In this document: positions 19,797 to 47,955 of the stretch, in pieces
Layout: each line of letters begins with the position of its first letter
Numbering within the stretch: the stretch's first letter is position 1
Assembly: GCF_003385845.1 (NCBI RefSeq)
Contig: NZ_QRDJ01000006.1
Span: 682,001-746,000 of the forward strand
Direction: 5' to 3'
DNA length: 64,000 bases
Origin: Kushneria indalinina DSM 14324
GTDB lineage: Bacteria; Pseudomonadota; Gammaproteobacteria; Pseudomonadales; Halomonadaceae
Translations under genes and position numbers: made by a program
Notes under the pieces: generated by a model
What the model was told of the DNA's origin: nothing
What the model saw: only the letters and a program-made list of their open reading frames with translations
Database searches by the model: none

Positions 19797-20048
19797 TCAG
19801 CGCAGGAAGGAGAAGTCGGGCAGCGGAAAGGGCAGGGGAATGTTCTGCATATAGCTGATGATCAGAGCCAGCATGATGGGGCTGAACAGGGCAAACAGCG
19901 TCAGCATCAGCCAGTTGAAGCGTTCATACCAGAGCACATTGCGGTAACGACGGTTGGAAGGCAGCGGATCACGCAGCGAGCGATACCCCATCGGCATCGT
20001 CTCTTCTGCGCTCTCATCCGTCGTGGCACCATTATCCTGCTGAGACAT
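19797..20048 (-). CDS. Small membrane protein, hypothetical
   Basis: An 83-residue protein with a hydrophilic N-terminal half and one strong transmembrane helix (FNWLMLTLFALFSPIMLALI), ending in a Pro/Phe-rich tail (PLPFPLPDFSFLR). Its ATG at 20048 overlaps the upstream gene's TGA (TGATG), a sign of translational coupling. I do not recognise the family. It is probably an inner-membrane protein with a short periplasmic tail. Confidence 0.6.
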   Translation of the reverse strand: MSQQDNGATTDESAEETMPMGYRSLRDPLPSNRRYRNVLWYERFNWLMLTLFALFSPIMLALIISYMQNIPLPFPLPDFSFLR

Positions 20049-20257
20049 CACGACACCATCTGCGCCTGAATCAGTGAATCAATCAATATCTCCTCACCCA
20101 TCTCCGGGCGTGTTACGCGCAAAATGATAAAGGCAGTACGGTGTGCGGAATCGAACGTGTTCCACGCCTCGTCAGGACACGCCAGAGAGGATTCAACCCA
20201 GCGTGATGCCCATGGCTGACAGGGGGTGTGATGTTCCGGATAGCGGGCACTGGTCAT
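20048..20257 (-). CDS. Small soluble protein, hypothetical
   Basis: About 69 residues. The start at ATG 20257 has GGAGG eight bases upstream, better than the in-frame ATG at 20272. Seen: a Trp/His/Pro-containing N-terminus (PEHHTPCQPWASRWVESSLA), then an alternating pattern (RTAFIILRVTRPEMGEEILI) that suggests beta strands. No family recognised. It is coupled to the downstream membrane protein by a 1-base stop/start overlap, so the two probably work together. Confidence 0.55.
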   Translation of the reverse strand: MTSARYPEHHTPCQPWASRWVESSLACPDEAWNTFDSAHRTAFIILRVTRPEMGEEILIDSLIQAQMVS

Positions 20258-20301
20258 CGCGGGGTCCTCCATCGAGAACGGTACAGGTTCATGACAGTAT
20301 A

Positions 20302-20661
20302 TCAACGAACGTCACTCTCGCGATGATCGGTCGTCGCGCTGGATGAGCGAGGCGTCGAGGTCGTGTTGCGCTGCTGGTAGCTGCGCTTTTCCTCTCTCAG
20401 GTTGCGCTGTGATTGCCGCAGCTGCTGCTGTTGTAGTGAGCGCTCGCCACGAGAAGTCGTCTGCTGGTTGCGCAGGCTGGATTTCTGACGATTGACGCTG
20501 GATTCACCGGATTGAATGCGGGAGTGCTGCTGGGCGCGCTCGAAGCGTTGCTGTGCTTCGCTACCGGCGCGCTCCTGTGATGCTGCAACGCTTTGCAACG
20601 TGCCCATGGCCAGTATTAGGCCGACAGACAATGAAAGAAGACCAACGCGATAATAACGCAT
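20302..20661 (-). CDS. Secreted Gln/Ser/Arg-rich low-complexity protein
   Basis: A 119-residue protein with a clear signal peptide (MRYYRVGLLSLSVGLILAM, cleavage near SVA-AS) and a mature chain almost wholly made of Gln, Arg, Ser and Glu, including QQQQLRQSQRNLREEKRSYQQ. It should be a long helix or coiled coil, or disordered. AGAGGAG lies seven bases before the ATG at 20661. No family recognised; similar short Gln/Arg-rich periplasmic proteins occur in related bacteria, without known function. Confidence 0.6.
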   Translation of the reverse strand: MRYYRVGLLSLSVGLILAMGTLQSVAASQERAGSEAQQRFERAQQHSRIQSGESSVNRQKSSLRNQQTTSRGERSLQQQQLRQSQRNLREEKRSYQQRNTTSTPRSSSATTDHRESDVR

Positions 20662-20702
20662 GCTGACGCTCCTCTGATCGGGCACGACTTACAGCAATGA
20701 GA

Positions 20703-20915
20703 CTAGCCTGCCTTGCGGGTCATCCTCGCCTGGTGAAGTTGAAATTCCTCGGCCATGGCAAGATCAAAGGCGGCCTGACGAAACTCCTGCATGGTGCAGA
20801 TATAGTGCCCATTGGGGCAGCGCAGTTCGTGGTGGTCCGGAGTACGCCCGGGCCAGGAAAGGGTGATATTGCATTCGGGGCAGCGCGGTCCACTGCGCAA
20901 GGTGGTTGAGTTCAT
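20703..20915 (-). CDS. Small zinc-ribbon protein, hypothetical
   Basis: A 70-residue protein with CPEC near the N-terminus and CPNGHYIC 21 residues later, giving a CxxC...C(x)3H-type zinc site like the small zinc ribbons of DksA- or rubredoxin-like proteins. The C-terminal half is a helix rich in Ala, Gln and Glu (MQEFRQAAFDLAMAEEFQLHQARM). No enzymatic motifs. It is possibly a nucleic acid or protein interaction module. It ends close to the secreted protein gene on the same strand. Confidence 0.65.
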   Translation of the reverse strand: MNSTTLRSGPRCPECNITLSWPGRTPDHHELRCPNGHYICTMQEFRQAAFDLAMAEEFQLHQARMTRKAG

Positions 20916-21220
20916 GACATTTCCCTTGTCAGTATGGATATTAATATGCGGTGCACGCCATCGATGGCATTCCCTGCCGGCGATGCGACGCGGACTCTAG
21001 CATAATGTAGCGGGGTGTACAGGCTGACCTGTATTGGTAAATAGCCTGGAAATCCATCGATTTAAGGCTGGGCTAATATCCGGGAAATGTGAGAGAAAAG
21101 GCCGCGATGAGCAGGGATGTGATGGGGCAAAAATGATTTTCGGGATTAATTCACGATTCATGGAACCAATCCCGACTGCCGCGGTCAGAGTTAGTGCAAG
21201 ACATCCTTCTGGGTTTCTTT

Positions 21221-21244
21221 GCCCCTCGTTTCGAGGGGCTTTTC
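21221..21244 (+). terminator. Intrinsic terminator of an unidentified + strand transcript
   Basis: 8-bp stem GCCCCTCG/CGAGGGGC with a TTT loop and four T after it on the + strand. No + strand gene ends just upstream (the nearest gene, the zinc ribbon, is on the minus strand), so it may end a small RNA or be a leftover. Confidence 0.6.
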
Positions 21245-21288
21245 TTTGCCCGGAATCCACGAAACGATCACGCAAATACTTCTGCTGA

Positions 21289-21316
21289 TTGACTGCCATG
21301 GTGCAATGCGTACAAT
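21289..21316 (+). promoter_or_regulatory. Sigma-70 promoter of tRNA-Leu
   Basis: TTGACT (21289-21294), 16-bp spacer, TACAAT (21311-21316). The first base of the mature tRNA is 12 bp after the -10 box, so transcription should begin a few bases upstream of the tRNA. Confidence 0.8.
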
Positions 21317-21327
21317 ACGCCGCACTC

Positions 21328-21412
21328 GCGGGAGTGGTGGAATTGGTAGACACGCTGGATTTAGGTTCCAGTGCCGTAAGGCGTGAGAGTTCGAGTCTCT
21401 CCTTCCGCACCA
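21328..21412 (+). tRNA. tRNA-Leu (anticodon UAG)
   Basis: An 85-nt class II tRNA read directly: acceptor GCGGGAG pairing with CTTCCGC, D loop with TGGTGGAATTGGTAGACAC, anticodon stem CTGGA/TCCAG with loop TTTAGGT (anticodon TAG at 21362-21364), a long variable arm, T loop GTTCGAGTC, and an encoded CCA. It reads CUN leucine codons. Its 3' end is the attachment site of the genomic island that follows and is repeated at 26830-26860. Confidence 0.97.
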
Positions 21413-21427
21413 TCTGCTTTACTTGTA
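21397..21427. repeat. attL direct repeat (tRNA-Leu 3' end)
   Basis: 31-bp sequence covering the T-stem side and 3' end of the tRNA plus 15 bp beyond the CCA. It is identical to 26830-26860 and in the same orientation. The tRNA remains intact, as is usual for tRNA-targeting integrases. Confidence 0.9.
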
Positions 21428-21526
21428 CATTTTCTGACATACCCTCCAGCCCCCATGGGGCCTAGTCTGTAGCAAATCTCTTTCCTCTAACGTCATCCTC
21501 AAAAGCGCCTTTAGAATAGCTCTTCG

Positions 21527-21551
21527 TGTATGCCTGTGTGTATGCTTCCAG
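21527..21551 (+). repeat. Integrase arm-like repeat, copy 1
   Basis: The 25-bp sequence starting TGTATGCCTGTGTGTATG, about 100 bp inside attL. It matches 22 of 25 positions with 26762-26786 and 16 of 16 with 26945-26960. It probably marks an integrase/excisionase arm-binding site of the island (inference). Confidence 0.55.
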
Positions 21552-21568
21552 TTAGGCATACAAAAGTC

Positions 21569-21967
21569 ATGAAATCACTGTATGAAGCGCTCACAGACAA
21601 GCGCCGGCCGCTGGCGGACATCACTTTAAATTCCCTTGAACCCGAGGATAAAGACTACCGGGAGCTCGATGGATAGGATTTATATTTTCGTGTGAAGGCC
21701 AACAGCTCAAAATCATGGGAGCTGCGTTTCAAGCGCCCGGATGGACGCTGTTCTTGGCTGGGTCTCGGTGGTTTTCCTAATAGAGCTGGTAAAGCGGCTC
21801 GCAAAGAGGCCTTTGATCTTAGCGCGATGGCTGCCAACGGCGTCGATATCGTCACGACAGCACGGAGTCGGTCCTGCCTCCAGACGATTTCGGATGTAAT
21901 GCCAAGAAAACGGGTTAACCGTGCGCTTAAGACCAGGTTCTGTGTGAAAATTCAGTCTCGTGCATAG
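21569..21967 (+). pseudogene. P4-type tyrosine recombinase (integrase), N-terminal remnant with nonsense codon
   Basis: From ATG 21569 the frame reads as the DUF4102 arm-binding domain of P4-family integrases: ADITLNSLEPEDKDYRELDG, then an in-frame TAG (21674-21676), then DLYFRVKANSSKSWELRFKR, PDGRCSWLGLGGFPN and GKAARKEAFDLSAMAANGVD. Past about residue 95 the similarity fades and the frame ends at 21967. The catalytic domain (R...HxxR...Y) is absent, so about three quarters of the gene is deleted. Position next to the tRNA attachment site fits the family. It is not functional. Confidence 0.85.
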
Positions 21968-22128
21968 CTTGATGCGGGCCGGTATCACCATGGCCTTAAG
22001 GCTGCTGAACACATTGCTAGAATAGGTATTTGCGCACCCCTTTTCATTCAACAAGCTAGATAGACGCTTTACCACATTGCGCTGACGAGTTTTCCGACCA
22101 GTGCGCTTCCCATTACCAAGGAGAGATC

Positions 22129-22524
22129 ATGATCCGCCAGCAGCTTGCCAAAATCAGAATGAGCCGATGTGAAGATAAAGACAAATACATTGAGATCGTG
22201 GTTTTCCTTGATGGCGACCGTTGTATTTGTGAAGAGGATAGCTATGGGCACGTGAAGGATAACTATGGTGACGGGCTCCATATGTACCCGGTCCTTTTAA
22301 CACCTGTTCCTGACCGTGGCGCGCCTGTATTCGAGATAGAGTGGGGCGGTAATGACAGAACCTTCACTGAGCTGGATTTCCAGCTCAAACGACCGGTGAA
22401 GGAAGGTGACAATGTCATCTGTGAAGAGTCGAGCGATAACAGTCAGGACCAGGTTAAGTACGACTACAAGATCAAGAGTATCGAGGTCCTTCTGAATGCC
22501 TTGCCGGGGGGCGAATCGGCATAA
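22129..22524 (+). CDS. Acidic hypothetical protein, island cargo
   Basis: A 131-residue intact gene with a good AAGGAGAG seven bases before the ATG. The protein is acidic (runs such as CEEDSYGHVKDNYGD and CEESSDNSQDQVKYD), has alternating beta-like segments (YIEIVVFLDGDRCIC; APVFEIEWGG) and no membrane segment or signal. I do not recognise the family. Small acidic beta proteins like this are sometimes immunity or anti-toxin partners, but no toxin partner is next to it. A strong terminator follows at 22573, so it is probably a stand-alone transcript. Confidence 0.65.
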   Translation: MIRQQLAKIRMSRCEDKDKYIEIVVFLDGDRCICEEDSYGHVKDNYGDGLHMYPVLLTPVPDRGAPVFEIEWGGNDRTFTELDFQLKRPVKEGDNVICEESSDNSQDQVKYDYKIKSIEVLLNALPGGESA

Positions 22525-22572
22525 TGATTCATGGACGTGCCGGCACCAGCCCGGGCGGATAGCGCTTCCACT

Positions 22573-22602
22573 AAAAAGCCCGCTCCGGTGAGTGGGCTTT
22601 TC
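22573..22602 (+). terminator. Intrinsic terminator after the acidic orphan gene
   Basis: 10-bp stem AAGCCCGCTC/GAGTGGGCTT (one G-T pair) with a CGGT loop, A-run before and four T after. It lies about 50 bp past the orphan's stop. Confidence 0.85.
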
Positions 22603-22609
22603 CTTGGGG

Positions 22610-23296
22610 ACATCCCGTCCGTCAGCTTGTGCGCAAGTCTCAATTTATCTCGGCATAGTCGATCCTGAGCAAATGCTCCTGACGCGAACCTGTCTGCAAG
22701 TTCGCTTTCTGATAGACCTAACCGCGCTGAAGTAATGTACAGATATTGGTCGCCATCGCCGAAAGAACAGCTTGTAGGGCGCAGGACCGGAAGCTTGATC
22801 CGTCGCATGATCGTTCCTTTCGGCGATATCTGGACGATGACTCCCCCATCAAAAAACACAATGAGAAGCGCTCCCTCCCGGTCAATCAGTAATCCATCAG
22901 GCTTGCCTGTATCCGTGGGGGGCCGATAAGCATTTGTCGGTGACTGACGTCACCAGAAAAGGGATCGTGATCACAGGCGTAGATGCATCCGCATCGCGAG
23001 TCCGTGACGTAGAGTGTTTGCCTGTAAGGACTCAAGTCGATCCCATTAATTAAAGTGCACCCGGAATCGATCGTGTGCCACACTCCGTCCGGATCAAGAC
23101 GATACAGATAGCTTGAGCCCTACCGTAGCCCCTTCATACATCAAGCCAACCCATAGACGATTTGAAGGGTCCAGGCGTGCATCGTTGAGTCGGTAGCCCT
23201 CCTGAGCATGGGGTGTTGTCGCAATGCGTTGGTGTTCCCCCTTTTTACCGACCAGCTCGACATGACAGCCGATCCCTACAAGCAACTCGCCGTTTA
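22610..23296 (-). pseudogene. SMP-30/gluconolactonase family, broken
   Basis: Three minus-strand frames in order make one interrupted beta-propeller: RLNDARLDPSNRLWVGLMYEG (23094-23285), then DSGCTLINGIDLSPYRQTLYVTDS with YACDHDPFSGDV (22886-23083), then FFDGGVIVQISPKGTIMRRI ending in TSCSFGDGDQYLYITSAR (22660-22859). These are the metal-site blocks (RxNDxxxDxxGR, NGxxxSPDxxxxYxxDS and the late Asp region) of SMP-30/lactonase proteins. Frameshifts separate them and the N-terminal ~80 residues are missing. The family usually acts in sugar lactone hydrolysis. It is not functional here. Confidence 0.8.
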
Positions 23297-23298
23297 CT

Positions 23299-23337
23299 CG
23301 GCAGCTTGATTAAATATTATTTTTAATCAAGCTGCCG
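23299..23337. repeat. Perfect 16-bp inverted repeat
   Basis: Arms 23299-23314 and 23322-23337 (CGGCAGCTTGATTAAA and its exact complement) around a 7-nt AT loop. It lies at the border between the SMP-30 remnant and the AT-rich membrane gene, about 40 bp past that gene's stop. It may act as its terminator, although no T-run follows on the minus strand, or mark an insertion boundary. Confidence 0.7.
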
Positions 23338-23379
23338 TGGCGCCAATGTACGTTGTAGAATATTTAGAAGTTAAATTAT

Positions 23380-24186
23380 TCAATAACGGTTAAACTCTTC
23401 CGCAGCTTTATGCAACTGACTTTCAATCGATCTTCGTATGCCCCAGTTTGCACTTGTATATTTTTCAAGAACTCTAATCGAGGTGATCGAGCTTAATATC
23501 CCGCAAATTAATAAAGCTATAAGAGCAGCTTTGCCATTCGTTAAAAAACCAGCTTCAACGTTAAGGTACCCAGCTAAAACCACCCCGCAGGATATTAAAA
23601 TCCACAGCAAGAATAGTTTAATGTATAACCCTTTATAACAATTTTGCTCTGTCAAGGTGTTTGTTTTGCCGCGCAAAATAAGTGGATTAAAGCAAGCCCC
23701 TAATATGTTTAGCAGAGGTATTGCGCCCACTAAGAAACCTTCTATAGCAACAGTTTTAGAAAACTCTTTTTCCTTGGAGTTGGTAATCAAACTTCTTCCC
23801 ATATTAAAAATTTCTCCAGTATTGTAGTTATGGTAAACTTCAAGATATCCGTCCCTGGAATCGACGCCCAGACAAAGCTTTTGTTTTTCAAAAACGTCAA
23901 TTGACTCGTTGTTGAGCTTTAATACGCCTTCTTTTTGAGTGAGAAGATTTTTATATCTAATTATTTGTCGTTCGTCCCTGTGATGAAAGCTTTTTATACT
24001 CACACCTTCTCCGTCAGGTGTTTTTATATCGGAAGTGATATCCCTGACCTGTTTGGTAGTAGTATAGGAGTGATCTGTATGGCTCGAACTCAAGATCATC
24101 ACAGGGAAAAAATCAATCTTAGGAAAAATTATAGATGTCACACCACTAGCTATATTTTGTTTTGTGTCAGAAAAGTTGTTCAACAT
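23380..24186 (-). CDS. AT-rich membrane protein of unknown function, island cargo
   Basis: A 268-residue protein in a stretch far richer in A+T than the host genes, so probably acquired from a low-GC source. The N-terminal ~135 residues are soluble and charged (DIKTPDGEGVSIKSFHHRDE; KLCLGVDSRDGYLEVYHNYN). The C-terminal half has about four hydrophobic segments (FLVGAIPLLNILGACF, LFLLWILISCGVVLAGYL, GKAALIALLICGILSSI) and a basic/helical tail. No known domain recognised. No obvious ribosome binding site was seen. It could be a sensor or a phage/plasmid membrane protein; there is no support for either. Confidence 0.6.
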   Translation of the reverse strand: MLNNFSDTKQNIASGVTSIIFPKIDFFPVMILSSSHTDHSYTTTKQVRDITSDIKTPDGEGVSIKSFHHRDERQIIRYKNLLTQKEGVLKLNNESIDVFEKQKLCLGVDSRDGYLEVYHNYNTGEIFNMGRSLITNSKEKEFSKTVAIEGFLVGAIPLLNILGACFNPLILRGKTNTLTEQNCYKGLYIKLFLLWILISCGVVLAGYLNVEAGFLTNGKAALIALLICGILSSITSIRVLEKYTSANWGIRRSIESQLHKAAEEFNRY

Positions 24187-24517
24187 TCTAATAGCTTCCT
24201 ATAGCCACAAGATTCGTATAGTTTTGGTTTTTATACAGCAGTTCGACTTTAAACTTCGATCCATGATGCATTTTTAATGAAGGTAAATCTAAATTTAAAT
24301 GTTTAATTTTTATTGCCTCACTTTTCCAGTCTGTCAAATCTACTCAGCTTGATCTCGAGTCTGATACACTAGGTATTGGCTGCAGCTCCTGATTATTCAG
24401 TGGGGTGTATGAGCGTATCAACCAATCTCGATTGTTCACTGTGGAGACTTTTCATCAGCGATCAGATTGAGCGCTGATAAAGGCTGCTTTCTCAGCTCAC
24501 CATGAGTGATAAGTCCT
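24187..24517. other. AT-rich spacer in the island, no gene seen
   Basis: 331 bp between two minus-strand island genes. Very A+T rich around 24190-24330. A 7-bp inverted repeat (ATCAGCG...CGCTGAT, about 24454-24478) lies after the lipoprotein gene but lacks a T-tract. No gene or RNA was recognised. Confidence 0.5.
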
Positions 24518-25147
24518 TCACGTATCTAATGTGCGGGCACCCAGTTCAAGGATGGCATTTATTGCCTTGGTAAAACTTTCCTTGTAAGAGCGTTCTGCTG
24601 CAACCCTTTCGACCAGATAAAAAGAGACGCAGCCATCTCCATTACTACATGATGCATATCCAGTGCTTTTTACGATTTCATTAAAGAGCTTTCTATCCGG
24701 TTCCTTGGAGCTCAGCACATATTGAACTTCCATATCTCTGGTGATCCCAGAGAAGGTGCTGGCTGAGCTCAAGGCTCCTTCTTCGCCAGTTTCCAGCATT
24801 TTTACGTCCAGCACATATCTTGAATCTTCAAACGGTGCATAGATACCTGCACTTTTCATGCCATTTTCCAGCGCTTCTCTCGCAGCATGCTCAGGCATGT
24901 TGGGAGATACATGGCCTGCTATAGGAAATATGCTGGTTCCTCGAAAATTTTCTATGCTTCTTAAGCTAATGCTTTGGTTAAACTGGTTGTCTTGATTAGC
25001 CTGAGTTTCGAAAACTGGGGTGGTTTTATCGATGTTGGGTTCGCCGGTTATCGAGACACAGCCTTGGAGAGAAATCAGTAAAACCGTGGTGGCAATCAAG
25101 GGTTTTCGGTTTGAATCAAGCTTCACAAGCGTTCCCCACATATTCAT
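24518..25147 (-). CDS. Lipoprotein of unknown function (YajG-like fold suspected), island cargo
   Basis: A 209-residue lipoprotein with a basic N-terminus, hydrophobic stretch and lipobox LQGC (Cys about residue 29). The mature part has HAAREALENGMKSAGIYAPF followed by YVLDVKMLETGEEG and a long region ending in SYKESFTKAINAILELG, an arrangement seen in YajG and other periplasmic lipoproteins of similar size. This comparison is by eye and uncertain. Two cysteines in CSNGDGC could pair. The start could also be a later codon, as the first ~13 residues are long for a signal peptide. Codon use is less GC-rich than the flanks. Confidence 0.6.
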   Translation of the reverse strand: MNMWGTLVKLDSNRKPLIATTVLLISLQGCVSITGEPNIDKTTPVFETQANQDNQFNQSISLRSIENFRGTSIFPIAGHVSPNMPEHAAREALENGMKSAGIYAPFEDSRYVLDVKMLETGEEGALSSASTFSGITRDMEVQYVLSSKEPDRKLFNEIVKSTGYASCSNGDGCVSFYLVERVAAERSYKESFTKAINAILELGARTLDT

Positions 25148-25366
25148 TTTTATACAATTTGAGTTGACTAAGATGATTTTATGCTAATTTAAGCTATGTT
25201 GCTATTTTTTACAATTGCCTCAGTCAGCTTTTGCCAATTCCAATGATGTTTTTTCAACAGATATGCTTGGCAAGGTTCTACACCATCACTTTATTCTTAC
25301 TACTCTCGAATAGCAGGCGGTGATACCCACTCGTTCATCCTGCATCAATCGAGCATCGTTACCGGC

Positions 25367-26650
25367 ATGAATACTTGGATACCCTCCCCATGGGCCAGAC
25401 GTTTGAAAGTGACGTCTAACTGGAGACTTCGTCTCGATAATGACCGTCCGACCGTTACCGGACTCTCGGCAAAAGACATCATTTGCGATTGGCAGGTGCA
25501 AAAGGTCCGAACAACTCAAGGTTCCGCATGGGCGTCCTGCCATGTCGAGATCGCCAATGCTGTTTCCACGAAAACGACCAGCGTTGTTCTCAAGGGGCTT
25601 GCCAGGGACAGTGCGGAAAAACTCGCGGATGCGCTGCGTTTTAATCTGAATCGCTATCTCCTGAGAATGCTGGCCTCACGGGCAGCCATGATCGCCCGTT
25701 GGCGTCATGATGCCTTTGGCCAGCTTTACAGGGATCGCTGGAATCGACGAAGCCTCCTCGATCAACTCTATGGTGAACGCGACAACCTTTTCCTGCAGGT
25801 GAGATTTCCAATGCTGATTTGACTGCCCACCCAGCGCTTGATGAGTCTGGGGAAAACGCTGAGGCTACTGAAGCAATCGGCAATCTGTGAAGGACATTCA
25901 GTAATGAGCTTGAGCAACAGGCAGAATCGTTGAATCGGAAGTTCGAGCAGGCCGAGTTGCTTCGACATCGTGACTTTCTGGACAGGGTAGAATCGCGGCC
26001 ACTTACGGACGAGCAAGCTGCTGCGGCCATTTGCTTTGATGATTGGGTTCGCTTCATTGCGCCGGCCGGGTCCGAAAAGACATCCACTATGGTGGCCCGC
26101 GCTGGCTACCCCGTACGGGCGGGTATCGCCCGACCTGATCAGATTCTGCTGCTGGCCTGCAACAGCGATGCCGCCAGCGAACTCAGAGAGAGCCTTAACT
26201 CAAGGGTGGTGCCTTGGGTCGATGGTCTTGAAAAGATCCAGTCCAGCACCTTTCATGCCTTCGGCCTGCGGGTTATTAGTGAAGTCACCGGGGTTTCAGG
26301 ACATCTGCCTTTTATTCTCTGCAGTACTGTCCAGAGACATCGGCACATTCCAGGCACAAAAGGACCGGGTGGATACCGTACCACTGACACCAATTGATCC
26401 CGAGGCCATCGTGACCCATCGGGAGGAAGTCGTAAAAAGCTAGGAGGAGAAGATGATCGCCGACTGGTTGACGCTCAACGGCATTAACTACCGGTACGAG
26501 AAACCCTATTACAGCGATACGGCTGATGCCGGGCATGGGCAGTACCATCCAGATTTTTATTACCCGGACGCTGACCTCTACCACGAGCACCTTGCACTCG
26601 ATGCGCCCGGAGAGCCACCGGCATCCTTCCAATATGAGCAGATATTATGA
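25367..26650 (+). pseudogene. HelD-like UvrD/SF1 helicase, degraded
   Basis: Pieces in order of a DNA helicase IV-type protein. The N-terminal domain is WARRLKVTSNWRLRLDNDRP...DALRFNLNRYLL (25367-25822). The SF1 core start follows, VESRPLTDEQAAAAICFDDW and a Walker A reading APAGSEKTS where AGSGKTS is expected (a Gly to Glu change from GGA to GAA), then RPDQILLLACNSDAASEL and STFHAFGLRVISE (25880-26300). After a frameshift comes IVTHREEVVKS, an in-frame stop at 26441-26443, and ADWLTLNGINYRYEKPY and YHPDFYYPDADLYHEH, ending near 26635. The C-terminal motor half is missing. It is not functional. Confidence 0.8.
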
Positions 26651-26761
26651 CCAAGCTGGCGCTGTGCCTGCAGGTTCGCTAGCTGGGGCCGTCAGCCTGA
26701 TCAATAGCAATGATGTAAATCCAATTTTGAAATCGATAGATCAAAACAGCAACGCTCGGTT

Positions 26762-26786
26762 TATATGCCTGTCTGTATGCCTCCAG
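26762..26786 (+). repeat. Integrase arm-like repeat, copy 2
   Basis: 25-bp sequence matching 22 of 25 positions with 21527-21551, in the same orientation, 44 bp inside attR. With copy 1 it fits the idea of arm sites flanking the attP core. Confidence 0.55.
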
Positions 26787-26829
26787 CTCCTGACATGTGT
26801 AAGGGTTGTTCTATAAAGAGGAAGCCGTC

Positions 26830-26860
26830 CTCTCCTTCCGCACCATCTGCTTTACTTGTA
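26830..26860. repeat. attR direct repeat
   Basis: 31 bp identical to 21397-21427, including the last 16 bases of the tRNA-Leu gene and 15 bp beyond. It marks the right end of the island. Confidence 0.9.
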
Positions 26861-26944
26861 TGCCTTCTGAAGTACTCTTCAGCCCTGAACGGAGCTCGCT
26901 TCAAGTAATTTTCCATATCCAGATGCTGCCAGCACGACATGCCA

Positions 26945-26960
26945 TGTATGCCTGTGTGTA
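26945..26960 (+). repeat. Integrase arm-like repeat, copy 3 (outside attR)
   Basis: 16 of 16 bases identical to the start of copy 1 (TGTATGCCTGTGTGTA), lying 85 bp outside the right repeat, close to the 100-bp distance of copy 1 from attL. This suggests the end of a second, older element at the same site. Confidence 0.5.
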
Positions 26961-26969
26961 GGCTGTCGA

Positions 26970-28553
26970 TCAGTGATCCTTGTCTTCCCCCGTACGGTAA
27001 TCGAAGTAGGCGAAATCTCCGGCCAGAGCCTGACCGCTGAGGTCCTGGACACACAGGCTTGTAAACGTTCCGGTAAAGCGAATGTATTTTGCGTCATCGT
27101 CAGAAAGATGAGCGATGTCGATTTTGTCGCCGACCGATTGCCACTGCTCAGGCTCTGTCGAGTAATAAAACTGCAGCTGCTCCCTGTCGATTTTTGCCTT
27201 TAAAAAGGTGGAGGACGCCGGCAGCGCAATCTCTTCACTTAATAGCTCATCGTATTCGCCATGCCGAGACTCGATGATGCCAAGACACTTGCCCAGCTCT
27301 TCATGATGGGTCACGCGCAGATAAACGTAATCGGCCGTGTCGTAATAGATGATCAGCCCGGCCATCTGCTGAAAGTGTTCGGGTGAAAACTCCAGTTCGG
27401 TCTCGACCTCGACATGGAAATGTTCCAGGCGTCTTGCCAGCAGACTTTGACGATGCGTCGACTGCATCGATTCGCCGCCCTTGAGCCTTAGAAACCCGGG
27501 ACGTTCGTGCAGGGAAATCCAGTCCTGCGTAAAGGGTCGCCTGAGCGAGTTCCAGTACAGTTTTAAGCGTGAGTCAGAGAAATCATCGTGACCATCCTCC
27601 TGAGGCAACGGATGCGACGCCAGATTCGGCGCGGTGACCTGCCAGTCCGGATAGGGGCCATTTTCGATTCGCAGCCACCCGTCCTCGGTCCAGTAACATT
27701 TCTGCAGCGCTGTCTCACGACCGAGAATGCATTTGTCATCAATGGCCGGGCGGGCGCACAGGTGCGCCATGTACCAGTCACCGTCCTGGGTGGTGACCAG
27801 ACTGCCATGGCCGGCCTTTTGCAGCCGGGACGGATCCTCCCGGTCGGAGGTCAGTATCGGGTTTTCAGGGTCGACCTCATAAGGCCCTGACAGGGAACTC
27901 GAGCGAGCGACCGTCACCGCGTGGTTGTACTCTGTGCCGCCCTCGGCGGTGATCAGATAGTAATAGCCACCATGTTGATAGATATGGGGGGCCTCTGTCA
28001 GGCCAAGCTCGGTCCCTCTGAATATATTGTGAACGGGGCCAGTCAGGCGTTTTCTGTCGTGGTCGTAGCGTTGCAGAGCGATGCCGGCAAAGGGGTGCTT
28101 GCTCTTGCGAAAGTCCCAGATCATGTTGAGAAGCCACTTCGAACCATCCTCGTCATGAAACAGGGAGGGGTCGAAGCCGCTGCTGTTCAGATAGACAGGA
28201 TCCGACCAGGGGCCTTCGATGTTGTCGGCGATAATGAGGTAGTTGTGTGTATCCTTGAAGGCCCCCTCCCGACTTTTGACATCGGTATAGATCAGGTAGA
28301 AAACGCCATCGGCATGGCTCAGGCAGGGCGCCCAGACGCCTCCCGAGTCGATGTTGCCGATCATGTTGAGCTGTGACACTCGAGTCAGCGGATATGTCAG
28401 CAGCTGCCAGTGCACCAGATCCTTGGAATGATGGATCTGTACGCCGGGGAACCATTCGAAGGTCGATACCGCGATGTAATAATCGTCGCCTACCCGAAGG
28501 ATCGAAGGGTCAGGATGATAGCCGGGCAATACAGGGTTGGTAATCAGCGTCAT
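26970..28553 (-). CDS. Glycoside hydrolase family 43 beta-xylosidase
   Basis: A 527-residue GH43 enzyme that releases xylose from xylobiose or short xylo-oligosaccharides. There is no signal peptide, so it is cytosolic. Seen: the N-terminal five-bladed propeller starting NPVLPGYHPDPSILRVGDDYY, with the catalytic base Asp in HPDPS, the pKa-modulating Asp in SGFDPSLFHDEDG and the acid Glu in TEAPHIYQHGGYYYL. A C-terminal beta-sandwich (GH43_C2) follows from about residue 320. The length fits XynB-type enzymes. The frameshifted symporter lies immediately upstream on the same strand, so the two form an operon for uptake and cleavage. No xylA/xylB gene is nearby. Confidence 0.95.
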   Translation of the reverse strand: MTLITNPVLPGYHPDPSILRVGDDYYIAVSTFEWFPGVQIHHSKDLVHWQLLTYPLTRVSQLNMIGNIDSGGVWAPCLSHADGVFYLIYTDVKSREGAFKDTHNYLIIADNIEGPWSDPVYLNSSGFDPSLFHDEDGSKWLLNMIWDFRKSKHPFAGIALQRYDHDRKRLTGPVHNIFRGTELGLTEAPHIYQHGGYYYLITAEGGTEYNHAVTVARSSSLSGPYEVDPENPILTSDREDPSRLQKAGHGSLVTTQDGDWYMAHLCARPAIDDKCILGRETALQKCYWTEDGWLRIENGPYPDWQVTAPNLASHPLPQEDGHDDFSDSRLKLYWNSLRRPFTQDWISLHERPGFLRLKGGESMQSTHRQSLLARRLEHFHVEVETELEFSPEHFQQMAGLIIYYDTADYVYLRVTHHEELGKCLGIIESRHGEYDELLSEEIALPASSTFLKAKIDREQLQFYYSTEPEQWQSVGDKIDIAHLSDDDAKYIRFTGTFTSLCVQDLSGQALAGDFAYFDYRTGEDKDH

Positions 28554-28580
28554 TGATGTCGTCCTTTTTAAGGCGGGGTA

Positions 28581-29986
28581 TCAAGCTCTTGCCTTGAGAT
28601 CCTGAATGATCTTCGGATAGCGCTTATCCAGATCGTAGAAAAGCATCAAAACAATGATGAGTACGCAAATGGCCAGCGGTAGATAAATAAAGAGCGCCTG
28701 GATGGACAACAGGGCCGTATCGGTCTGTGCGTCGCCGCCGCCGACATAGCCGCCCATGGCAAGTATCCAGCCGATAAGCGCTGTACCGAGACCGCTGCCG
28801 ACCTTGATGCCCATGCTGCCGCCGCTGTAGACCATGCCCTCATTACGGATTCCGGTCTTCCATTCACCGTATTCGACGGTATCGCCCAGCATGGCGAACA
28901 TGCTGCCGTTGATCGGTGCCTTGCCGATGCCGCGATAATCGTGCCGGCAATGATCAGGGCGACATTGGTGAGATCGATCAGCATGATTAAATAACCGAAG
29001 ATGGTAATGACTTCGCCAACAATAATGGCGTTGCGCTTGCCGAATCGTTTGGTAATCGGTGCGACGACGACCATGCCCAGCAAAATGAAAGCGATATAGG
29101 CCGTCGTCACGACCCCTACCAGCCAGGTGTTATCAAGAATGTATTCTGCGTAATAAACCACGGCGCCCGAGTTGAGCCCGTTAAAGATGTAGGTCAACAG
29201 GATGAACGCTGTGGCAAGCACCCAGTATCGGTTTCTGCCCAGCGTCTTCAGGCTTTCCTTGAGCGAGACCTTCGTGTCTCGCATGTTCTGGCTTGCGGGC
29301 TGGACTCGCTCTCTGGTCGTCTTGAACGTAAAGATGAAAAGCGCCGTGCCTATCGCGCCAAACATCATGAAGGTCATGACCCAGCCAAACTGGCCTCCGC
29401 CCAGTAATGTCGCGACCGGTAGCGTCAGGTTGCTGACCAGCAGAACGCCCACGAGTGCCAGGCTCATGCGAAAGACATTCAGCAGCGAGCGCTGGTACTG
29501 ATCCTGAGTGATGAGCGAGTTCATGGTGCCATAGGGAACATTGAGCCCGGTGTAGACCAGGCAGACAACGTTGTAGGTGACGGCGATATACACCACCTGC
29601 CAGAAGGGGTCGATATCGGGAACGGCGAACAGCAATACCGCCGACACGGCAAAGGGGACTGCCAGCCACAGCAACCATGGTCTGGCCTTGCCATGCCGGG
29701 AGGTTGTCTTGTCGATGATGTAGCCCATCGCAACATCCGAGACGCCATCGAACACGCGTGAAAAGAGCATGATCGAGCCGATGACGCCCGCGGCAATGCC
29801 GATAACATCGGTGTAGTAATAGACAATGAAGATACTCATTGCCTGCCAGATAAAGTTGCTGGCCAGATCGCCACAGCCATAACCGACTTTCTCCAAAAGA
29901 CCAATTTTCTCGGCTTCCGGAATAGAAGCGCTGGCCGATGATGCTTCCGGCTGTGGGCCTTCCAGGGTATTCCTGTTTGTCGTCAT
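28581..29986 (-). pseudogene. GPH-family pentoside:cation symporter, single-base frameshift
   Basis: A sugar symporter of the glycoside-pentoside-hexuronide family (XynP/YagG-like), about 467 residues if repaired. The first frame starts at 29986 and gives the usual opening (LLEKVGYGCGDLASNFIWQA; DKTTSRHGKARPWLLWL; NVPYGTMNSLI) up to VALIIAGTII. There one base is missing: the next codons read in the +1 frame as the expected RGIGKAPINGSMFAMLGDTV, then EYGEWKTGIRNEGMVYSGG to the end at 28581. The missing G (+ strand) is at about 28934-28935. It sits 27 bp upstream of the xylosidase. The break is either real inactivation, with export of function to a paralogue, or a sequencing error. Confidence 0.85.
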
Positions 29987-30110
29987 GCATCATCCTGATG
30001 AGAGGGAAGGGCAATGGTTTGAAGGCCGCGGCTGGTGGCCGGAGCGTGAGGTTCATATGGATGTGGTCGCTGCCCGGCTGGTTTTTAAAGCGCCTATACG
30101 ACCTGTTGGG

Positions 30111-43876: not shown

Positions 43877-44413
43877 TCAGTGACTGTCCTTCTGGAAGGC
43901 ATCGATCGATTTTTCGATGGCCTTGATGGCAGCGGCCTTGTCGCCCCAGGTGTCGATCTTGACCCACTTGCCCTTTTCGAGATCCTTGTAGTTCTCGAAA
44001 AAGTGCGCAATCTGCTGACGCAGCAGTTCGGGCAGATCAGTGACTTCCTCGACATCGTCATAGGCCGCGGACAGCTTCTGGTGAGGGACGCAGATCAGCT
44101 TGGCATCTTCGCCGGCTTCATCGGTCATGTGCAGGATGCCCACGGGGCGGGCGCGAATGACACAGCCGGGCTGTACCGGGTAGGGCGTCACGACCAGCGC
44201 GTCCAGCGGGTCACCGTCATCGGCCAGCGTGTTGGGGATGAACCCGTAGTTGGCCGGATAGAACATCGGGGTCGGCATGAAACGATCGACCAGCAGCGCG
44301 TCGAGATCCTTGTCGATTTCATACTTGATCGGCGTATGGTTGGCAGGAATCTCAATCGCCACGAACAGATCGTGGGGAACATCCTTGCCGGCGGGGATCT
44401 TGTCGAAACTCAT
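43877..44413 (-). CDS. ppa: Inorganic pyrophosphatase, family I
   Basis: A 178-residue cytosolic Mg-dependent enzyme (E. coli Ppa: 176) that hydrolyses PPi. Seen: the start [47 protein letters not shown] with the metal-binding DGDPLD signature, and KLICVPHQK. The ATG at 44413 has AAGGAC upstream; codons before it are not related. A PPi-dependent phosphofructokinase gene lies about 3 kb away on the same strand. Confidence 0.97.
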
Positions 44414-44569
44414 CGATCGAGTCCTTGCGTTTGCGGGTTGAAAATTCGAGAGTGAAAATCGTGGGAAATTATACGAACCAGGCAGGACGATTACCAATTC
44501 GGTCGAGCGGCAGCTCCCGATCCGCACAATACGATAAATCCGTTGTCTCGTAAAAAGGATGCCAGTGAC

Positions 44570-46324
44570 GTGCAAAGTGGCCTGTCATTAAGTTTCGGAC
44601 ACGCGTTCGTGGCGCCCGATCAACGCCGTCATCGCTCCTCGATGTCGGTCCAGGTGCCCGATAACGCTCGTCAGCTCGAGATCAAGGGTGCCTGCGCGAT
44701 CATCGCGGATTCTACCTGGCGCAATGCGATTGCGCGCCAGGCCGGCGACATTTCGGTACGTGGCTTTCTGGCTGATTACTATTCCACGCCTGACCACTGG
44801 GACATCAAGACCTCGGCCACCAGAGTGCTGCGCGCGCTCAACGGCTGGTGCTACAGCCAGAGCCGCTACGTCCAGGGCGGCAGCTATATCAGCTCGCTGT
44901 CGGCCATTATCTTTCGTGGCCGGGAAAGTTACCTGTTTCATATGGGCGATACGCTGGTCTTTCGCCTGCGCGGCGCCGAGTTTGAGCAGCTTTCGCGCGA
45001 TCATGTCACGGACCTGGGCGGCTATCGCTATCCCTCCCGCGCGCTGGGCATGGACAACAACATCGATATCGATCACATGAGTCTGCCGCTCAAGACAGGC
45101 GATGTGTTTTTGTTTACCTCCCAGGCTGTGCGCGGCACGCTCACACCCACGGACTACGTGCACGCCATCCGACAGCAGGATAACGACCTTGATGCAGCCT
45201 GCGAGCGTCTGGCCGGCATGGCGCGTGAGCGTGCCGGTGCACGGGGTTACGGCGCTGAAGCCTTCTGCTTTCAGCTGGTTCGTGTCGACACGCTTCCAGA
45301 TGAAGATATGGGGCCGCCGGTTCAGTTTCCCGGGCAGTTGCCGATCCCGGCCGAGCTTGAGGCGGGGGATCGCATTGACGGATTTCTGATCGAGTCGATC
45401 ATCTCCAGAACGGCACGAGCTCATGTTTACGGGGTCAGGGATGAAACCTCGCTGCGGCGGATGGCGATGAAGGTCCCCAGTCCCGCGATGTCGTCCAGAA
45501 ATCCCTATCTGGAGCATTTCCTGTTGCAGCAGTGGATCGGCGAACGAGTACGCTCCCCCTTTGTGGTGCGCATCGTGGCGCCCCCGCGTCCCCGGCGACA
45601 TCTCTATTATCTGATGCGTCCCATCGAGGGACAGCCGCTGGATCACTGGCTGGCACAGCATCCCGACGCCGGTCTCGAACAGCGCCTCGACATTGCGCGC
45701 CAGCTCGCGCGTGCCGTGCATGCGCTACATCGGCGCGACATTCTTCATCAGGCCATTCGTCCTGAAAACATCATGATTGATGAACATGAGCAGGTGGTCC
45801 TGATCGATTTTGGCGCCTGCGCGCGCCGGCTGGATGACGACAACAACGCGGCGCTGGCCCTGGCACGGGATGGTAGGCTTGGGATGCACAGTGCGCCGGA
45901 GTACGCCCTCGGGCTGGGCGTCAGTCGTCGTAGTGACCAGTATTCGCTGGCCTCGACCATCTACTGGTTGCTCACTGGGGCCATGCCCTACGACATTGCA
46001 CCTGATACGCTTGAAAGTGAACAGGCGCTGTCAGGGATGACCTACCGTCGCGCCCGCGAGATCAATGCTCAGATACCGACATCCATCGATGATGCGCTGG
46101 CGCGTGCCCTGTCCCCACGTCGAGCGCTTCGTTTCAGGCGCCTGTCCGAGATGATCCAAACGCTTCGTCACGGCGCAGCGCTTGATGACGATGATGACGA
46201 CGAAGCCTCTTCATCGGGTGAAAAAACGCTGGATGCCTCATCGCGTCAGAAGGCGCTTCGTCTATGGCAGGGCATTGCGGCGGCCCTGCTGCTGATTCTG
46301 GTGGCCGTCATGCTGATCCAGTAG
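44570..46324 (+). CDS. PP2C phosphatase/Ser-Thr kinase fusion, both domains apparently degenerate
   Basis: About 584 residues: an N-terminal PP2C-like domain (~1-240), a kinase domain (~270-540) and one C-terminal membrane helix (~566-583). The start is GTG 44570 with AAGGA upstream; a TTG at 44543 is the alternative. The layout is that of the bifunctional phosphatase/kinases found near nitrate transporters. Compared with that family, PP2C residues are altered: DGVS reads DSTW (47-50), SDG reads SQA (184-186), and QDN reads GAEA (228-231), while GD (126-127) remains. In the kinase the Lys (301) and DFG (413-415) remain, but the catalytic HxD loop reads HQAIRPEN, with Asp changed to Ala and Lys to Arg. 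Probably a membrane-anchored scaffold or regulator rather than an enzyme (inference). Confidence 0.85.
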
Positions 46325-46420: not shown

Positions 46421-47680
46421 CTAGAGATGGTACTCGGGCAGCTTTTTGGTGATGCGCTCCAGGCGCAGCTTGGCGACCTTGGGCAGGCCGTTCTCGAACG
46501 GCGGGAAATCTTCGCCCTGAATCAGGGGGCGCAGATAGCGGCGACCGGCATCATTGATGCCAAAACCGTCTTCGCGAATATACTCCGCTGGCATGAACTT
46601 TTCCTGATTGGCGACCCGTTCAAGCGGGGCATCAATGATCGACCAGCTGTACGGGTCTTCACTGTCACGCTGAATGGCCGGCATCACGGCATTTTTGCCT
46701 TCAAGGGCGCATTCCACGGCGCGCTGGCCCACGGCGTAGGCCTGTTCGACATCAACGGCCGAGGCCAGATGGCGCGCGGCGCGCTGCAGGTAGTCGGCCA
46801 CGGCCCAGTGATACTTGTAGCCCAGATCCTGCTTGACCATGCCGGCCAGCGTGGGGGCAACGCCGCCGAGCTGGCGATGGCCAAAGGCGTCGGTATTGCC
46901 GGCATCGGCCAGGAAGGTGCCGTCTTCATAGCGGGCGCCTTCCGAGACGACCACCACGCAGTAGCCGTGCTTTTTGACCGCGGCGTCGATGTGGGCCATG
47001 ACGCGCTGGCGGTCAAAGGGCACCTCGGGCAGCAGGATCATGTGCGGCGGGCCGTCATTGGTTTCGCTGGCAAGGGCCCCGGCGGCGGCAATCCAGCCGG
47101 CATGGCGACCCATGGCTTCCAGGATGAAGACCTTGGTGGAGGTCGAGCACATCGACGCAATATCGAGGGCCGCTTCGCGGGTGGAGGTGGCGATGTACTT
47201 GGCGACCGAGCCAAACCCCGGAGAGTTGTCGGTAATGGGCAGGTCATTATCGACGGTCTTGGCCACGTGAATGGCCTGCAGGGGGTAGCCCATGTGTTCG
47301 GAAAGACGGGAAATCTTCAGGCAGGTATCGGCGCTGTCGCCGCCGCCGTTGTAGAAGAAGTAACGAATGTCATGGGCCTTGAAGACTTCGATGAGGCGCT
47401 CGTACTGGCTGCGGTGCGTCTCGATATCCTTGAGCTTGTAACGGCAGGAGCCAAAGGCGCCGCCCGGGGTATGTCTCAGTGCTGCGATGGCCTCGTCACT
47501 TTCCAGGCTGGTATCAATCAGATCCTCGGTCAATGCACCGATAATGCCATTGTGTCCGGCATAGAGGGTACCAATGCGATCGCTGTACTTGCGGCATGTC
47601 TGGATGACGCCGCAGGCACTGGCATTGATAACGGCCGTAACACCACCTGATTGCGCGTAAAAGGCGTTATTGGAGGTCAT
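46421..47680 (-). CDS. pfp: PPi-dependent 6-phosphofructokinase
   Basis: A 419-residue PFK of the pyrophosphate type. Seen: AQSGGVTAVINASACGVIQ, the GGGDS motif (NGGGDSADTC), in which Asp replaces the Gly of ATP-PFK, the catalytic TVDNDLPITDNSPGFGS (TIDND in ATP-PFK), and EAMGRHAGWIA. It reversibly transfers phosphate from PPi to fructose 6-phosphate. ATG 47680 with AGGAAG upstream; the ~40 codons before it are low-quality sequence. It pairs with ppa in that both control PPi, but they are not in one operon. Confidence 0.94.
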   Translation of the reverse strand: MTSNNAFYAQSGGVTAVINASACGVIQTCRKYSDRIGTLYAGHNGIIGALTEDLIDTSLESDEAIAALRHTPGGAFGSCRYKLKDIETHRSQYERLIEVFKAHDIRYFFYNGGGDSADTCLKISRLSEHMGYPLQAIHVAKTVDNDLPITDNSPGFGSVAKYIATSTREAALDIASMCSTSTKVFILEAMGRHAGWIAAAGALASETNDGPPHMILLPEVPFDRQRVMAHIDAAVKKHGYCVVVVSEGARYEDGTFLADAGNTDAFGHRQLGGVAPTLAGMVKQDLGYKYHWAVADYLQRAARHLASAVDVEQAYAVGQRAVECALEGKNAVMPAIQRDSEDPYSWSIIDAPLERVANQEKFMPAEYIREDGFGINDAGRRYLRPLIQGEDFPPFENGLPKVAKLRLERITKKLPEYHL

Positions 47681-47955
47681 GAGCTTCCTGCTTCTTATGA
47701 ATGTAGGTCGGCCAGCGCCGTTGCTCTGACCGATTTGTCTCTCGGCAACGTGGCGCACCTCTTGTGGGCAGCGCTGCTGTTGGTCGGTCAGCGGATCGAT
47801 GGCCGGCATCGGGTATTACCCGTGGGGCGATCATAGCCATTACCTGCAGGCCTGATCCAGTCAGAGATTCAGGATTTGCAGGTGAGCCGGAGCCTGACGT
47901 CGATTCATGCCCCATGCTAGGCTGATCCGGCTTTTGACGGAGAGCCCAATTTTTC

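Follow-up and report, generated by a model that had tools for sequence, protein, structure and literature searches.

Membrane-anchored fusions of a PP2C-type phosphatase and a protein kinase, encoded near NarK or FNT transporters and carrying intact catalytic motifs, are what we take to be the bifunctional phosphatase/kinases (bPPK). Pseudokinases and pseudophosphatases are each already known, and serving as an allosteric partner or decoy is a common role of pseudokinases. Some unicellular relatives of PHLPP had a C-terminal kinase domain, according to one source (PMC12002173). In the open-access literature we recognised no paper on the protein described here or on a bacterial double PP2C/kinase pseudoenzyme, nor any devoted to the intact fusion family. 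The gene considered here lies in a 64,000-nucleotide stretch of Kushneria indalinina DSM 14324 (contig NZ_QRDJ01000006.1; hereafter the window), and its product seems to be both kinds of pseudoenzyme in one bacterial protein, with the two domains dead together across Halomonadaceae.

The reading frame (44543 or 44570 to 46324, + strand) is open and full-length, in agreement with a preliminary description that called the gene intact and well formed. GTG 44570 is the likely start codon; it is preferred because AAAGGA ends 10 bases upstream of it and because in L004, L006 and L007, three close Kushneria loci, the TTG further upstream does not share the reading frame. The layout proposed there, a PP2C domain followed by a kinase and a C-terminal membrane helix as in bPPK, is borne out by Pfam, by alignment with intact relatives and by hydropathy (Table 1). 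In HMMER searches, Pkinase matched residues 284–514 over its cut-off (77.3 bits against 31.7) and PP2C_2 stayed under its own (12.0 against 24), the latter model scoring 47.7, 60.9 and 56.2 bits in three intact relatives. Homology to intact members is full-length (29–38% identity), and one of them, L139, used as a query, finds the window gene in the Kushneria genome at E = 2.6e-110; the relative from K. avicenniae (L031) is 85% identical to the window protein.

Table 1. Coordinates in the window of the gene, its diagnostic residues and its two neighbours; dead-form rows and intact relatives are the two sets of aligned sequences described in the text.
Feature	Coordinates	Strand	Basis
Predicted double-pseudoenzyme gene, 584 aa: PP2C-like + kinase-like + C-terminal membrane helix	44570..46324	+	ORF, Pfam, alignment, hydropathy
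Putative ribosome-binding site AAAGGA before GTG 44570	44554..44559	+	Direct reading; also in Kushneria loci L002–L007
PP2C-like putative pseudophosphatase domain, residues 5–245	44582..45304	+	Alignment with intact relatives; PP2C_2 12.0 bits, below 24
Ser23 at motif-1 Asp site (N-x-D)	44636..44638	+	Dead-form rows S 130, A 4; intact relatives D 80/80
Asp47-Ser48, motif 2: Asp kept, Gly lost	44708..44713	+	Dead-form D 133/134, G 0/134; intact D and G 80/80
Gln185 at motif-8 metal Asp site	45122..45124	+	Dead-form Q 112, R 17, P 4, H 1; intact D 80/80
Clade-specific insertion, residues 225–229 (RGY..), before motif 11	45242..45256	+	R225 and G226 134/134; Y227 131/134
Motif 11: Glu230-Ala231, against Asp-Asn in intact relatives	45257..45262	+	Alignment
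Kinase-like domain, residues 262–535	45353..46174	+	Pkinase 284–514, 77.3 bits; PDB phmmer matches
Lys301, ATP lysine (VAIK), kept	45470..45472	+	K 132/134 dead-form rows
Gln320 in place of alphaC Glu	45527..45529	+	Dead-form Q 133/134, E 1; intact E 80/80
Ala395 in place of catalytic HRD Asp	45752..45754	+	9 different residues in 134 rows, Asp never; entropy above 87% of kinase-domain positions
Asn400, catalytic-loop Asn, kept	45767..45769	+	N 127/134 dead-form rows
DFG motif, residues 413–415, kept in window protein; Gly lost in most of clade	45806..45814	+	D 131/134, G 19/134
C-terminal hydrophobic helix (tail anchor)	46268..46318	+	Peak 18-residue hydropathy 2.5
ppa, inorganic diphosphatase, divergent neighbour	43877..44413	-	NF002317 284 bits, cut-off 200
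pfp, diphosphate--fructose-6-phosphate 1-phosphotransferase, convergent neighbour	46421..47809	-	NF010675 634 bits, cut-off 273

We aligned 134 distinct Halomonadaceae sequences without the HRD aspartate (the dead-form rows) with 80 distinct other relatives, namely ten second copies inside Halomonadaceae and 70 sequences from the rest of the order (18 plus 52 further distinct matches); a class-level motif check covered 27 non-Halomonadaceae loci. Three split-match pieces (L118, L131, L132), a PP2C-only fragment with its motifs kept (L133) and a partial sequence (L178) were dropped before counting, L179, L251 and L252 were left out of the analysis, and identical rows were merged (110 loci giving 99 distinct rows; 8 of 60 later loci duplicated earlier ones). 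The HRD Asp and the motif-8 Asp are both absent from all 134 dead-form rows and both kept in all 80 other relatives, the HRD site being non-independent evidence as the rows were sorted by it, although the resulting split is identical to a split by provenance. Thirteen of the 14 sites counted are invariant in the 80 intact relatives, the other being the Asp of the DH motif (D 76, E 4), and all 27 class-level loci are intact at 13 sites. None of the relatives examined outside the dead clade carries the losses (0/80 and 0/27). The aligned catalytic positions coincide with those named in the preliminary description, save for a slip of one residue at the DN motif.

A match to the window protein occurs in 249 of 250 Halomonadaceae genomes, the exception (G089) being 88% complete. 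In a quick tree of 27 of the 134 dead-form rows and all 80 others (LG+G4, SH-aLRT without bootstrap, catalytic columns kept in), the dead form makes up one side of a branch with an SH-aLRT of 100 and a stem length of 0.59. The dead state is apparently of single origin and belongs to a Halomonadaceae-wide clade, not to one gene. A C-terminal hydrophobic helix is found in 133 of the 134 dead-form rows, and none of the 134 has a second hydrophobic segment, both at an 18-residue mean of at least 1.6. Two members stand out: G204 has its match spread across two frames (L118/L131), possibly through a frameshift or an error of assembly, and L177, a divergent Halomonadaceae member, is without the ATP Lys.

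Motif names and roles in both domains are those we presume from general knowledge. In the PP2C-like domain, the preliminary reading of DS at 47–48 and of Gln at the motif-8 Asp (185) stands, the motif-8 DG being QA (185–186), but the DN pair is EA (230–231) and not AE. The same list had omitted the motif-1 change of Asp to Ser, the five-residue insertion before motif 11, where positions 225–228 are a gap in all 80 intact relatives, and the alphaC change of Glu to Gln. Position 230 varies freely in the dead clade: the motif-11 Asp site is D in 79 rows, E in 34 and another residue in 21, and the adjoining Asn is kept in 8 of 134.

In the kinase-like domain, the HxD motif does read HQA (393–395), and the retention of the ATP Lys and of DFG in the window protein is confirmed by alignment; the following Lys is indeed Arg (397), which says little given that the 80 intact relatives have K in 51 cases and R in 29. 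The alphaC position was assigned through alignment with PknE. Two dead-form rows depart at the ATP Lys (one Arg, one Ala), and DFG has lost its Gly in 115 of 134 and its Asp in three. When ranked by variability among kinase-domain positions, Lys301, Gln320 and Asp413 fall at the 14th, 7th and 17th percentile, and position 395 drifts. Both domains are predicted to be enzymatically inactive. The motif-2 Asp (133/134), an acidic residue (Asp or Glu) at motif 11 (113/134) and, in the kinase half, the Lys, the Asn and the Asp of DFG are still in place, so that some metal or nucleotide chemistry may persist.

Loss at several sites of a well-formed gene had been read as selection for a non-enzymatic role over decay, with dN/dS across close relatives as the check. 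By the Nei–Gojobori method, the window gene gives 0.039–0.051 for the PP2C domain and 0.062–0.096 for linker plus kinase against L002–L007; with L008, a more distant comparison, the two values rise to 0.107 and 0.132. Whole-gene dS, at 0.7–1.0, is partly saturated; both domains lie mostly at 0.04–0.13. The tail evolves faster (0.20–0.47 against L002–L007). Ten of 405 other close dead-form pairs were taken, seven of them with a finite whole-gene dN/dS (0.036–0.107), and seven of 12 pairs of intact relatives gave 0.030–0.120, so that the dead gene is about as constrained as the intact ones. The window gene is under strong purifying selection, which, with its presence in nearly every genome of the family, supports the selection reading: the protein probably has a non-enzymatic role kept across Halomonadaceae, its inactivity being deduced from the residues.

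Defining clade-specific positions as those with one residue in at least 95% of the 134 dead-form rows and that residue in under 10% of the 80 intact ones, we found 27, of which 22 are in the PP2C domain and five in the kinase domain. Measured along the sequence and not by coordinates, 14 of the 22 lie within five residues of old active-site positions (three are in the insertion), a value reached by 0.00045 of random draws and one of 240 circular shifts. A limit of eight residues gives 17 of 22 (0.00075 of draws, 5/240 shifts), and the result is weaker at three (9 of 22; 0.0074, 13/240). The pattern of variability fits lost phosphotransfer, a nucleotide pocket that is possibly kept and a rebuilt phosphatase pocket, and we infer from the clade-specific residues that this may be a single pocket.

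The usual nitrate transporter partner had been reported absent, and ppa and pfp indeed stand beside the window gene instead. Among the best 80 of 107 dead-form loci, ppa is the divergent neighbour in all 80, with pfp, accB and dsbD in 77 each, and ppa also adjoins 20 of the 22 divergent Halomonadaceae members; the two others, L177 and L170, have no ppa match in the stretch examined. A NarK or FNT homologue falls within the stretch of 60 of the 70 intact loci (FNT in 32, NarK in 29, both in one), the NarK query passing its NCBIfam threshold (316.9 against 311.7) and the FNT query matching TIGR00790 short of the threshold (137 against 232). Of the remaining ten loci, three have ppa and seven have none of FNT, NarK and ppa. 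Some intact relatives from genomes outside Halomonadaceae sit at the locus of the window gene. In G265 an intact kinase diverges from ppa, and beyond ppa come homologues of dsbD, prmA, dusB and purH in an arrangement collinear with that of the window; in G270 the intact protein has homologues of dedA, mpl and pfp to one side, and to the other nirB followed by ppa; and G279 likewise has nirB then ppa. Here nirB (G270, G279) and prmA exceed NCBIfam cut-offs, and the names dsbD, dusB, purH, mpl and dedA are presumed. The intact ppa-linked rows (L205, L206, L212) fall at separate places in the tree, none of them as sister to the dead clade. Since intact relatives share the syntenic locus, the ppa/pfp surroundings seem to have been there before catalysis was lost and have the look of inherited synteny. 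Gene order, and not the tree, makes it likely that the ancestral locus was tied to nitrite assimilation. A nirB-nirD-FNT cluster elsewhere in the Kushneria genome (L284:2849-8076) has no bPPK homologue.

Another part of the window, 20001–30000, has a GC content of 0.45–0.55 against about 0.60. It includes two ORFs without a Pfam match at E 0.001 (23380–24186 and 24518–25147, both on the - strand), possibly a foreign segment, and a GH43 glycoside hydrolase with a GH43_C2 domain (26970–28553). Between them, two adjacent ORFs on the + strand (25367–26397) match the N-terminal domain of helicase IV, at a score under the cut-off, and no more than the first third of the UvrD helicase model; they look like a broken helicase gene.

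The constancy of ppa and pfp had first suggested a functional link, in which the window protein would sense pyrophosphate metabolism, or act as its scaffold, together with the neighbouring pyrophosphatase and PPi-phosphofructokinase. We consider this unlikely: accB and dsbD show that the wider block is conserved too, pfp is convergent and not co-transcribed, and the idea is weakened by the intact relatives that occupy this locus (G265, G270), where the neighbourhood seems to predate catalytic loss, and by the nirB that separates kinase and ppa in two genomes (G270, G279). Slightly more doubtful again, in our view, is that the window protein serves an active sibling kinase or phosphatase as allosteric partner or as decoy, which would fit the common role of pseudokinases. 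It gains from the second, intact relative in 10 of 12 re-searched multi-match Halomonadaceae genomes (L121–L130; all but L122 have an FNT-family homologue within the stretch examined). The Kushneria genome itself, however, was searched with Pkinase, PF13672 and the L139 query, and gave no Pkinase match over cut-off besides the window gene (79.6 bits). PF13672 (PP2C_2) matched nothing there, the window gene included, and so would overlook any other PP2C domain that has diverged strongly, and L139 found the window gene and a single further match at E = 0.085. One 265-aa kinase-like protein (L285:667-1461) scores below every cut-off, with 19.3 bits for PF00069 and 66.5 of 372 (PRK12274) and 64.8 of 490 bits for two NCBIfam serine/threonine kinase models; it is possibly a small live kinase. 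Exactly one Pkinase match is present in 22 of 101 Halomonadaceae genomes, among them G089, which has no bPPK match; in the other 21 that match is the window-gene homologue in the 14 for which both positions are given. A decoy for an intact paralogue is weakened by these searches finding none in the own genome, and a live sibling in Kushneria is left with one weak candidate.

It is improbable, too, that the kinase half has taken up a different enzymatic activity, such as AMP transfer, through its retained Lys, Asn and DFG Asp, a change with precedents in SelO and SidJ as described in PMC12599244. Those three residues stay in nearly all rows (132, 127 and 131 of 134) while the catalytic Asp is lost, but the alphaC Glu is Gln in 133 of 134, the DFG Gly is mostly gone, a few rows have lost the Lys or the DFG Asp as well, and it is the phosphatase half, not the kinase half, in which the newly conserved residues are concentrated. 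Least probable by far is a decaying relic on its way to becoming a pseudogene. The free variation of positions 395 and 230, the G204 match in two frames and the faster tail are what one would cite for it; the low dN/dS of both domains in the Kushneria pairs, the matches throughout the family and the 27 near-invariant clade-specific positions in practice refute it by conservation.

We lean, without strong confidence, towards a non-enzymatic, tail-anchored binding protein derived from a nitrite/nitrate-linked PP2C-kinase, with both active sites lost once and the phosphatase pocket rebuilt. The ancestor would have been an active membrane-anchored PP2C-kinase in a nitrite/nitrate assimilation locus, both sites would have been lost in the ancestor shared by the Halomonadaceae sampled here, and the protein would have been kept thereafter for binding. 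The former phosphatase metal pocket would have become a new conserved site made of R22, S23, M25, the R225-G226-Y227 insertion and F232-C233-F234, most likely binding a ligand or partner protein, and the kinase-like domain (Lys301, Asn400 and Asp413 kept), having no catalytic base, may bind nucleotide as a conformational switch. A bolder form, which we regard as doubtful, is a Halomonadaceae-wide membrane receptor whose dead phosphatase pocket binds a small molecule or phosphoprotein and whose dead kinase is a nucleotide-gated switch. If this bolder form is true, a two-enzyme phosphorylation switch would have been converted whole into a non-enzymatic sensor, and in some species the sole Pkinase match over cut-off would be a dead protein. 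The intact relatives at the same syntenic locus offer a natural before-and-after comparison, and the gene would allow the function of a dead signalling enzyme to be studied in a clean genetic setting.

With intact bPPK the window protein shares near full-length homology at the identity given above, the domain order and the C-terminal membrane helix (75 of 80 intact relatives). It differs in that those examined keep the metal and catalytic motifs of both domains (80/80 and 27/27) and mostly have NarK or FNT near (60/70), and the window gene has neither. We know of no PP2C domain in EssB/YukC. EssB/YukC is likewise a membrane protein with a dead kinase fold, acting as a non-catalytic scaffold, but belongs to the type VII secretion system and has all three kinase motifs degraded (PMC12599244). 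TAB1 and PHLPP2 have a PP2C fold with altered metal sites and are kept without phosphatase activity; unlike the window protein they are eukaryotic, and PHLPP lost the kinase domain where the window protein keeps both dead domains (PMC12002173).

Among the kinase-like families of PMC12599244, SelO-type proteins also lack the canonical catalytic motif and keep the ATP Lys and a DFG-type Asp, yet the alphaC Glu is Gln in the window protein and AMP transfer is a SelO feature. CP1 pseudokinases are COG3899-linked and without a membrane segment, unlike the window protein with its PP2C-like partner domain and C-terminal helix. DLHK keeps the HRD Asp, has degraded ATP and metal motifs and no membrane segment, the opposite of what is seen here. 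DYD shares the absence of the alphaC Glu, but has the ATP Lys changed to Arg and a DYD motif where the window protein keeps Lys and DFG; ActPs1–3 and GLW, per their section heading, have all three catalytic motifs diverged and differ from it on the same two counts. By these definitions the window protein is outside CP1, DYD and DLHK. Bacterial pseudokinases are recognised by the loss of at least one of the VAIK Lys, HRD Asp and DFG Asp, and here the HRD Asp is absent in 134/134; PP2C pseudophosphatases are recognised by the loss of a metal-binding Asp in a recognisable PP2C domain, and here the motif-8 Asp is lost in 134/134, the domain being recognised by alignment, with PP2C_2 under its cut-off. 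Judged by sequence, the window protein is a bPPK descendant that lacks the catalytic residues of that family and qualifies as pseudokinase and pseudophosphatase at once.
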